This document shows, piece by piece, positions 2,000 to 4,348 of a stretch of 7,400 nt of DNA. A model generated the notes under the pieces. It did not search any database. It was not told where the DNA came from and saw only the letters and a program-made list of their open reading frames with translations. A program made the translations under genes and the position numbers. Position 1 is the first letter of the stretch. Each line of letters opens with the position of its first letter. This stretch comes from an uncultured Eubacteriales bacterium (GTDB lineage: Bacteria > Bacillota_A > Clostridia > Lachnospirales > Lachnospiraceae): contig CADCPV010000087.1 of assembly GCA_902803345.1 (NCBI GenBank), forward strand, positions 1-7,400. The letters are read 5' to 3'.

Positions 2000-4258
2000 T
2001 TAATTCAGCCCAATCTGGACCTCAGGATCCGGATTTTTCTTCTCTTTTCCCTGCAGGCGCGTGTAATCTTCCAGCGCGTGGCGGTCGTTATTTTCGAGCG
2101 TTTTCCGTTCGGATTCGGAAAGTTTCTGTCCTTCCTTCGCGAATTTCGAGATTTCCTGGACGCCTTCAATCCGCAGTTTGATATAGGTATCGCTGTCGAT
2201 TGTTTTCCCGTTGTCCCGAAGCTCCTTCAGCTTGCCCGCGGCGTAAACATCCGCAGCCTGCTCCATCTTCTTCAGGCTCTTCTGCATCTTCCGAAGATCC
2301 TGCGGGGTTACGTACTGTCCGAAAACAGTCTCCGGAGACTTGTCGCCGTTTTGCACTTTCTTTCTCGACTCCGCCATCCTGTCGCGGATCTTCTGCGTCA
2401 GCTCATAATATTCCTGAACCGCTTCTTCCACCCGCTGGTAATTCGGCGAAGACTTTCCGCGGAAAAAGCTTGTGCGGTCCGAAAGCATCTTCTTCATGTT
2501 ATTCGCATGCAGGATCTGCCCGGTAATTCCGGCATCGGTTGCGCGGTCGGTGCTTCCGAGCAGCTTCGCTTTTTTCTTTTCGTCATTTTCGACTTTGGCG
2601 TAACGGCGGACGATATCGAATCCCCTCTTGACTTCACAGAACAGGTTCTGAGTCCTGGAGCTCGTCAGTTTGTCCAGATTCGTCTCGGCCTTCTTCCTGC
2701 TCCGCTCCTCGGCGAGGCGCCGGAATCCTTCCGTATCCAGTTCCCGGATCGAGGGGTATTTGATCGTATCCTCATCCGGATTCAGGTCCTGCCGGCTTCT
2801 TTTAATGACATGCTGCATGATGTAGAGGCGGTCACAGGCTGCCTTGATGGATTCCTCGTCAATTGTACCGCGCAGGCTGAACGCGAGCTCTTCCGGAGAA
2901 AGATCCAGAATCCGCTGGGCGGTCTTCTTGCTGATTGCGCCCATCGTGACAGGAACCTGCTGACAGCGGATCCGATCGTTCGCTTTCTGTGGAGCAAAGG
3001 TTCCGAAGGAACTGTCATTGTCGATTCCCTGAACACCGATCAGCTTGCCGTCATCGTCAAACTGATAGAACAGGTTTCCGGCGTGGCGGTCGATATTTCC
3101 GCAGATATAATCAAGAGCCTGCAGATCCGCAATTGCTTCCAGTCCGCGGCCGTCCGTATTCTTCAGGGAATTGGAATTGACCAGGATGCCCTTCCGTCCG
3201 GCAGAATTGGGGTCCTCACCTTTCGCCTTCGCCATGAAGGTTCCTTCGATTTCCCTGCCGTCCTTTGTCCGGATCTTCATCGGCTTTGAATAGCAGACGA
3301 CGTTCTGAACACCGATCAGTTCCGCGACAATGCTCATTCCCGCGTTTTTCTTGTCAATCCGGGTCTTGTCCGTCATGCCGACCTCGCGGCCTTTGATCTG
3401 AACGTCGAAGAAAATCTTCTCCAGTCCGGATGTCATGCCCTTCAGCGCGTTTTTGCCGCAGAGATTCTTTACTTCCTCCGGTGTTTTGCCGCTGACTTTT
3501 GCGATTTCCGAAACGATTTTGTCCTGAGAGAGGGCCATGCCTTTATTCGGATCCTTGCGGGAATTCATCAGGAAGCCGACCACCATCTCCGGATTCGTCT
3601 TGACAGACTTATTCTTATCAGGATGCTGCGTATAGTATTCCTTATAGGCATTCATGAAGTTCGAAAGAAGCGCCCTTCCGTCCGGCGTCGCGGCCTTTTC
3701 CGCCGCCGAATCCGCAACCTTGTTGAATGTCCCGAGCGGATCATAGACTTCCGCTTTCGTAAAGAAACCCTCCATCGGATTTCCGTCCGGACCGACAATC
3801 GTCATCGGCATGCGCTGTGACTGCGCGCCGCCGACACTTTTGATTTTGACATCCGAGATATCAATGGTCTGCACGCGGGCCTCATCCAGAATCGTGGGAA
3901 GAGATTTCTGATTCTCTGGATCTCTGGGATTGTATCTTCGGAAAGCCGCCGTATCGGCAGCAAGAATCTCCGCAAGCTTCTCCGCCTTTTCGCGGTTTGC
4001 CCGCTCCAGAGGATCCGTGGTATTTTTAGTTCCCTGGAGATATTTTTCCAGCGCCCTGCCGGCTGTGCGGTATTTGCCCGCCAGTGAATCCATGCGTTCC
4101 GGCGTTATCAGCTTCCAGCCGTTTTCGTCGGGCTCCATCAGTCCTTCCATTTCCTGGTTCAGCTGCTGCATCGCCGTAAGAAACGGTGCGTACTCCTGCG
4201 AGTTGGACTGATACTGCTGCATTTCATTCAGCAAAACCTGATAATCTTCTCTTGGCAT
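2000..4258 (-). CDS. Putative atypical kinase (HipA/Fam20C/PI3-4K-like fold) with long helical flanks
   Basis: I do not recognise a named family for this 752-residue protein, but its centre reads like an atypical kinase. Residues 138-170 could form the N-lobe: a glycine-containing turn (SVGGAQSQ, 141-148), a strand, then GFFTKAE with candidate ATP-binding Lys168. A helical insert covers about 175-300. An AGMSIVAELIGVQ helix (306-318) would be helix C, followed by strands ending in GTFMAKAKGED (339-349). The catalytic loop is LDYICGNIDRHAGN (382-395) with Asp390 and Asn395, and the metal-binding equivalent of DFG is GIDNDSSFG (411-419) with Asp413 or Asp415. This order is typical of HipA, Fam20C, PI3/PI4 kinases and actin-fragmin kinase. 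Residues 1-110 and 505-752 are helical, rich in Lys, Glu, Arg and Gln, with coiled-coil character. No signal peptide or membrane segment is visible, so it is presumably cytoplasmic unless exported by a non-classical route. The start has an AGGAGGT ribosome binding site eight bases upstream. Substrate (protein, lipid or small molecule) is unknown. Confidence 0.72.
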   Translation of the reverse strand: MPREDYQVLLNEMQQYQSNSQEYAPFLTAMQQLNQEMEGLMEPDENGWKLITPERMDSLAGKYRTAGRALEKYLQGTKNTTDPLERANREKAEKLAEILAADTAAFRRYNPRDPENQKSLPTILDEARVQTIDISDVKIKSVGGAQSQRMPMTIVGPDGNPMEGFFTKAEVYDPLGTFNKVADSAAEKAATPDGRALLSNFMNAYKEYYTQHPDKNKSVKTNPEMVVGFLMNSRKDPNKGMALSQDKIVSEIAKVSGKTPEEVKNLCGKNALKGMTSGLEKIFFDVQIKGREVGMTDKTRIDKKNAGMSIVAELIGVQNVVCYSKPMKIRTKDGREIEGTFMAKAKGEDPNSAGRKGILVNSNSLKNTDGRGLEAIADLQALDYICGNIDRHAGNLFYQFDDDGKLIGVQGIDNDSSFGTFAPQKANDRIRCQQVPVTMGAISKKTAQRILDLSPEELAFSLRGTIDEESIKAACDRLYIMQHVIKRSRQDLNPDEDTIKYPSIRELDTEGFRRLAEERSRKKAETNLDKLTSSRTQNLFCEVKRGFDIVRRYAKVENDEKKKAKLLGSTDRATDAGITGQILHANNMKKMLSDRTSFFRGKSSPNYQRVEEAVQEYYELTQKIRDRMAESRKKVQNGDKSPETVFGQYVTPQDLRKMQKSLKKMEQAADVYAAGKLKELRDNGKTIDSDTYIKLRIEGVQEISKFAKEGQKLSESERKTLENNDRHALEDYTRLQGKEKKNPDPEVQIGLN

Positions 4259-4266
4259 AATACTTA

Positions 4267-4273
4267 ACCTCCT
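4267..4273 (-). promoter_or_regulatory. Strong ribosome binding site of the kinase-like gene
   Basis: AGGAGGT on the minus strand, eight bases before the ATG at 4256-4258. It fixes the start codon of the 752-residue protein and suggests efficient translation. Confidence 0.85.
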
Positions 4274-4308: not shown

Positions 4309-4339
4309 ATCATAATTCCTGCTGTCCAACAAATGTCCA
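4309..4339 (-). promoter_or_regulatory. Candidate weak promoter of the kinase-like gene
   Basis: TGGACA (4334-4339) and TATGAT (4309-4314), each one mismatch from consensus, are separated by 19 bases, longer than the best spacing of 17. The elements overlap the inverted repeat at 4314-4348, so that repeat could act as an operator. No better pair is seen between ligA and this gene; read-through from ligA is the alternative. Confidence 0.3.
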
Positions 4340-4348
4340 GCAGGAATT
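4314..4348. repeat. Perfect 11-bp inverted repeat between ligA and the kinase-like gene
   Basis: AATTCCTGCTG (4314-4324) and CAGCAGGAATT (4338-4348) flank a 13-base loop. On the plus strand it is followed by TTAAG and a run of seven T (4353-4359), the layout of an intrinsic terminator; on the minus strand, where the flanking genes lie, the 3' side is AATTATGATATG, with no T-run. It could end ligA transcription inefficiently, stop antisense transcription into ligA, or serve as a protein-binding site. Confidence 0.6.

Follow-up and report, generated by a model that had tools for sequence, protein, structure and literature searches.

The window analysed here, 7,400 nucleotides at positions 1 to 7,400 of contig CADCPV010000087.1 (assembly GCA_902803345.1) from an uncultured Eubacteriales bacterium of the Lachnospiraceae, contains an open reading frame of 752 codons (4258-2000, minus strand) whose 752-residue product had been described, in an original prediction made from the sequence alone, as a protein with an atypical-kinase catalytic core. 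That observation is confirmed, and the interpretation offered with it is supported in part. The reading frame lies at 2000-4258 as predicted, on the minus strand, and its same-strand neighbours in the window encode DUF3881, SerS, LigA, a pseudouridine synthase with an S4 domain, and an Hpt protein; there is no HipB-like gene among them, in agreement with the earlier statement that no such antitoxin is adjacent, and no signal peptide is apparent by eye in the kinase. On balance, we favor the interpretation that the kinase is active, that it is produced along with a chromosomal type IV secretion system (T4SS) that has no MobP relaxase nearby, and that this system probably delivers it; what is new is the genomic and promoter context, which probably ties the kinase to a T4SS regulon. 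The features of the gene are as follows.

2000..4258, minus strand: coding sequence of the 752-residue atypical kinase; the stop codon is at 2000-2002
2003..2035, minus strand: disordered tail, residues 742-752, pLDDT (AlphaFold2 per-residue confidence) under 50; a possible place for a secretion signal
2036..2734, minus strand: helical C-terminal part, residues 509-741, from the model
2744..3874, minus strand: kinase domain (PI4K-II/Fam20-like), residues 129-505, from the model, fold comparison and profiles
3014..3028, minus strand: metal loop GIDND, residues 411-415 (Asp413, Asp415), from the alignment
3074..3100, minus strand: catalytic loop GNIDRHAGN, residues 387-395 (Asp390, Asn395), from the alignment
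3380..3739, minus strand: helical insert between strand 3 and helix C, residues 174-293, from the model
3929..4258, minus strand: four-helix bundle, residues 1-110, from the model
4268..4273, minus strand: Shine-Dalgarno-like AGGAGG upstream of the ATG, read by eye
4309..4314, minus strand: -10-like box TATGAT, 9 bp after the repeat, an offset found in 60 of 72 aligned sites
4324..4339, minus strand: direct repeat TGGACATTTGTTGGAC with an 11-bp period, an exact match to the regulon motif

Structure prediction, one of the checks proposed with the original prediction, gives an AlphaFold2 model (pLDDT 90.3, pTM 0.85; 51 input sequences) with a bilobed atypical-kinase domain, in which strands at 130-133, 149-155 and 161-168 are followed by a helix at 303-314, strands at 324-330 and 336-343, a helix at 371-386, and then the catalytic and metal loops. 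The catalytic loop GNIDRHAGN is at residues 387-395 and the metal loop begins at 411, 16 residues after 395, both as had been read from the sequence. A homologue search yielded 144 proteins at E<=0.001, 120 of which are taken into the alignment, and N388, D390, R391, H392, N395, D413, N414 and D415 are identical in all 120, including the four residues (Asp390, Asn395, Asp413 and Asp415) whose conservation had been put forward as a check; C386 and G411 are kept in 119, and these ten positions are invariant across the 51 aligned relatives. A DRHxxN motif followed at this spacing by [ILV]D[NF][DG] did not arise in any of 20,000 shuffles of the window protein. Two elements of the earlier reading of the kinase core need correction: the proposed beta-3 Lys168 is a lysine in just 65/120 homologues and 30/51 relatives (41/51 have a lysine at either 168 or 169), being less well conserved than Arg149 (116/120, the remaining four being gaps), and the helical insert of about 120 residues (about 174-293) that parts strand 3 from helix C in the model had been missed. 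As a side observation, the hairpins at residues 151-174 and 326-350 are alike by eye (PM-I----DG---EG-F---A---DP in both), which hints at an internal duplication in the N-lobe.

Profile and fold searches had also been suggested. The Pfam profiles PI3_PI4_kinase (PF00454; E 2.8e-5, 24.6 bits, under the gathering cut-off of 27.1) and Fam20C (PF06702; E 4.5e-4, 20.4 bits, cut-off 26.8) match the window protein below their thresholds; 50/51 and 49/51 relatives, respectively, match them at E<=0.1, and both are precomputed domains in many relatives; HipA_C matches just one of the 51 members (E 0.01) and not the window protein. Foldseek alone gives no match at E<=0.001, the top row being MavQ (E 0.044). 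Comparison of the kinase domain (129-505) using VIA-align places type II phosphatidylinositol 4-kinases (PI4KII) nearest, at 14.5-15.3 (best row 229 residues at 3.6 A), followed by Fam20 (13.2-13.9), CtkA (12.5-12.8), CotH (11.8-12.0), HipA (up to 9.7), actin-fragmin kinase (9.0) and Vps34 (about 8.5); because Z differences under 1 are counted as ties, the lead of PI4KII over Fam20 is modest. We are nearly certain that the protein has a kinase fold, and it is likely to be catalytically active; in the model the domain is nearest to type II phosphatidylinositol 4-kinase and Fam20 and not to HipA. It is 15-19% identical to PI4KII alpha/beta over the aligned part, and differs from them in being bacterial and in having additional N- and C-terminal helical parts and the helical insert; relative to the secretory-pathway kinases Fam20/Fam20C it has Asn395 where the FAM20C row has a Glu, and its flanks differ. 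CtkA (12.8), CotH (12.0), HipA (9.7) and MavQ (Foldseek E 0.044) belong to the same fold class, but HipA_C is confined to that single member, and neither the CotH nor the CtkA family is among the window protein's Pfam matches.

The helical flanks noted originally are present in the model, with four helices within residues 2-108 and a helical C-terminal part. The N-terminal bundle is no more like the membrane-localisation bundles of toxins than it is like unrelated bundles in fold comparison, and neither TcdB_N nor MLD, which we take to be the profile names for the membrane-localisation domain of large clostridial toxins and MARTX RID, is among the best 25 of 39 families matched by 12 N-termini.

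A 16-bp direct repeat, TGGACATYTGTTGGAC, whose units recur every 11 bp, stands upstream of the window kinase and is separated by 9 bp from the -10 box that follows it. The sequence TGGACATTTGTTGGACA, or a near form, precedes the kinase genes in the window and in four other loci (L003, L021, L023 and L026; L numbers denote loci and G numbers genomes), and TATGCC-N5-TATGCC precedes those in L002, L006 and L013. Exact 7-mer repeats of period 11 are present in 14 of 76 kinase upstream regions, compared with 1.3 in shuffles, with at most 9 for any of the remaining periods between 8 and 22. The TGGAC class is found before 9/76 kinases and 6/555 other locus genes, and the TATGCC class before 4/76 and 2/555, several of these 'other' genes themselves being candidate substrates. 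The same words stand upstream of T4SS genes: TATGCC repeats precede a pilin-like gene in G011, and TGGAC repeats precede a regulator in G005 and, twice, a pilin in G319. PhoB- and SARP-type winged helices bind direct repeats spaced by 11 bp beside a -10 box, and the kinase repeats resemble such promoters in their 11-bp period and their position 9 bp before the -10; one of the T4SS loci scanned, that of G319, has a gene for a receiver protein carrying a Trans_reg_C winged helix (E 3.6e-5). The differences from SARP/PhoB-type promoters are that the repeat word varies by lineage (TGGAC, TATGCC and TTGTTGC classes), that another locus (G005) encodes a receiver with an XRE domain, and that binding here is predicted.

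A search with the 16-bp pattern, allowing up to one mismatch, finds 71 sites in seven T4SS-positive genomes, with 2 to 22 sites per genome, and no site in 15 VirD4-negative genomes; a reversed control pattern gives none in the seven and three in the fifteen. The hexamer resembling a -10 box lies 9 bp after the repeat in 60/72 sites, the window included, and is outside the 16-bp pattern used for searching. Because the seven genomes were pre-selected, the exact pattern plus -10 box across a sample of 299 Lachnospiraceae genomes is a less biased test; nine genomes match, 5/13 with VirD4 and 4/286 without it (p=7.7e-6), and in two of them (G261 and G176) one match is within 8 kb of VirD4. The 71 sites are scattered over many contigs, and the genes downstream of them are pilin-like at five sites (four genomes), receiver regulators at two and kinases at nine; after exclusions there are 36 further proteins of 158 to 2080 residues in 13 families. 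Nearly all of these lack a Pfam match: a near-identical set of 36 has matches to four Pfam families at E<=0.01, with one member each. A Gly-Pro dipeptide is present in the last 20 residues of 13/36 regulon proteins as against 13/167 controls, and in 37/114 kinases; there is none in the last 20 residues of the window protein, and because of this no secretion signal is claimed for it.

The T4SS itself is seen in related genomes. Three loci (L040, L031 and L026) have the kinase some 3 to 6 kb downstream of a VirD4/TraG gene, whose product matches T4SS-DNA_transf (Pfam) with E 8e-51 in L040 and 7.6e-48 in L026, the L031 copy being cut by a contig end. Eight T4SS loci were compared, one of them (G062) from a genome without a kinase match, and they contain varying sets of genes for a pilin (T4SS_pilin, E 2.6e-14 in G319), VirB4 (P-loop_TraG, E 1.5e-15 in G001), a VirB6-like membrane protein (named by position and appearance, with no Pfam match), VirD4, a surface protein of about 2000 residues, and two-component genes; four protein clusters are present in all eight loci, three in seven, and others in fewer. 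STAS, RsbW-like and SpoIIE genes also lie within T4SS loci (for example L078:12027-14589), which suggests partner-switch control of secretion. No PF03432 relaxase was found near this VirD4 in 10 genomes, in a search that covered PF03432 only and is limited by contig breaks; such a relaxase is on other contigs in five of the genomes and absent from four, and in G001 the nearest is about 378 kb away on a shared contig. In G062, G127, G177 and G079 the VirB6-like match is divided between neighbouring reading frames, two in number, and these genomes may represent a second T4SS subtype.

A scan of GTDB genomes found 157 relatives of the kinase, from which 74 loci were kept, with titles naming Lachnospiraceae, Oscillospiraceae, Erysipelotrichaceae, Eubacterium, Clostridia, Bacilli or Bacillota, mostly metagenome-assembled; by our own count, 28 titles mention a gut compartment, and in 27 of these it is one of the ruminant stomach. 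Sixteen genomes searched whole have from 1 to 12 kinase-matching places each, noting that one protein may yield more than one, and none of 55 viral-contig candidates encodes a relative. In G004 two frames of about 1330-1340 residues (C20:64543-67839 and C30:131935-134892) each have two kinase-profile matches, suggesting tandem kinase domains, and in L006 (10001-12276) the kinase gene is split over two overlapping open reading frames by either a frameshift or a sequencing error.

Forty-one of the 74 loci lead to 40 genomes with the kinase, and 35 of these have a relative of the L040 VirD4 (at least 53% identity); among the other five, a VirB6-like protein (60%) is present in G321 and a VirD4 fragment (49% over 77 residues) in G324. 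The sample of 299 Lachnospiraceae genomes is centred on G001 (titled Lachnospiraceae bacterium AC2029), which contains locus L014, and in the sample the kinase is present in 14 genomes and VirD4 in 13, with both in eight where 0.6 are expected (Fisher p=2.4e-9). The kinase matches are stronger than E 1e-75 in six of these eight. Other VirD4-like proteins score below 100 bits in the VirD4-negative genomes checked at a looser threshold, while the best of this type exceeds 570 in each genome that has it.

Several observations weigh against a tight connection. Kinases, mostly remote members of the family, occur without this T4SS: 6 of the 14 kinase genomes in the 299-genome sample have no VirD4 of this type (one, G079, has a weak VirB6-like match, E 1.4e-25), and over both samples the best kinase match is weaker than 1e-75 in 11 of 12 such genomes, the exception being G514 (2.6e-144). 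The second sample, 300 genomes centred on G007 (the genome of L018, titled Oscillospiraceae), has the kinase in seven and VirD4 in three, with G007 alone common to both, so that the association is not replicated in that family, its sole shared genome being the centre, itself chosen for having the kinase. G001 was likewise picked for carrying the kinase, the seven motif genomes were picked since the kinase or motif had already been seen there, and the p-values are optimistic because the genomes share ancestry. The TGGAC class precedes just nine and the TATGCC class just four of the 76 kinases, the strict pattern occurs once each in the VirD4-negative G163, G129, G250 and G301, the Pfam matches among the regulon proteins point to no target, and the tail feature is a dipeptide statistic, with Gly-Pro tails in 5 of the 13 families (36 proteins).

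With these points in mind, we consider that the window gene is likely to be a member of the T4SS regulon because of its promoter match, and there is a somewhat better than even chance that the kinase is a T4SS substrate; that the window's own genome carries a T4SS we infer from its relatives. The repeat pair before the -10 box would most probably be bound by a response regulator of the type encoded beside the T4SS genes, presumably a winged-helix receiver of the PhoB/SARP type acting as activator, and if so the kinase would be made together with the T4SS and dozens of other large proteins. The machine would comprise a VirB2-like pilin, VirB4, the VirB6-like protein, VirD4 and the large surface protein. 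The kinase and the other large regulon proteins would most likely be its substrates, VirD4 recognising a signal that is perhaps in their disordered C-terminal tails, and the T4SS would either secrete them or transfer them to a cell in contact with the producer, where the kinase would phosphorylate a lipid or a protein.

Alternatively, the kinase could be co-regulated with the T4SS but remain in the cytoplasm of the producer, for example tuning secretion through the STAS/RsbW/SpoIIE partner switch or a two-component system. The presence of the switch genes at T4SS loci and the lack of a signal peptide by eye are consistent with this, but a set of substrates accounts better than a single regulator for the occurrence of up to 12 matching places in one genome, for the great divergence of the kinases and their scattered positions, and for the disordered tails, and we think this alternative unlikely. 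We regard as less probable still that the T4SS is the conjugation machine of an integrated element, with the large proteins, the kinase included, being cargo or polyvalent-type proteins sent with the DNA: VirD4 and VirB4 do belong to the conjugation superfamily, the relaxase search was limited to PF03432, and sequence cannot separate DNA transfer from protein transfer, but no PF03432 relaxase is near this VirD4 in the 10 genomes (within the limits of contig breaks), the motif sites are spread over many contigs, and the viral-contig candidates are devoid of kinase relatives.

Export by a type VII system is very improbable. Residues 51-86 have a weak WXG100-like match (TIGR03930, E 0.019; Pfam WXG100, E 0.39 with the whole protein and 0.01 with residues 1-117, all below cut-off) and in G022 EssC is matched in part, below its cut-off, but a W-x-G turn is not seen by eye in the bundle, and EssC over the cut-off is found in 4/14 kinase genomes and 61/285 others (p=0.51), so that type VII secretion is not associated with the kinase. 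A role as a HipA-like toxin paired with an antitoxin, or as a kinase in phage defence, is equally improbable; the fold class is shared with HipA, but HipA_C is found in just the one member, the window has no HipB-like neighbour, and PADLOC returns only weak matches (DpdC 0.02, Cas4a 0.05).

A Gram-positive VirB/VirD4-type machine, the T4SS of the Streptococcus suis 89K island, has been reported to export a protein (PMC12857230). The system described here differs from it in having many large candidate substrates, defined as a set by their promoter, and partner-switch genes in the T4SS locus, and its export is predicted. These results give a concrete, testable system in gut Clostridia: the T4SS locus is conserved, its candidate substrates can be listed by a promoter word, and one candidate family has a readable enzyme fold. 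A eukaryotic target is a possibility, the sole basis being the predicted PI4K-like fold and the habitat of the relatives. More speculatively, and with considerable doubt, ruminant-gut Clostridia might have a dedicated protein-injecting T4SS with dozens of promoter-defined effectors, as in Gram-negative intracellular bacteria, in which PI4K-II-like kinases would be the commonest recognisable enzyme and would target the membrane lipids or proteins of a neighbouring eukaryote, for example a rumen ciliate or an anaerobic fungus. A protozoan or fungal target would imply a molecular dialogue in the rumen, and a bacterial one a new weapon.

Some further features of the repeat-bearing promoters and their genes can be noted. 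The window repeat lies within an inverted repeat whose two 11-bp arms (4314-4324 and 4338-4348, with a 13-nucleotide gap) match perfectly and are not seen by eye at the other aligned sites; this inverted repeat might belong to a ligA terminator, although it is not followed by a T-run, or serve as a regulator site. One regulon family comprises proteins of about 2000 residues or more with an MPRP start (L138:3-5951, L143:1-5952 and L152:3230-9469), and its genes are divergent from the kinase in L138 and L143. In L005 a gene for 3032 residues (817-9915) lies directly before the kinase, and it is this gene that the TATGCC repeat precedes.
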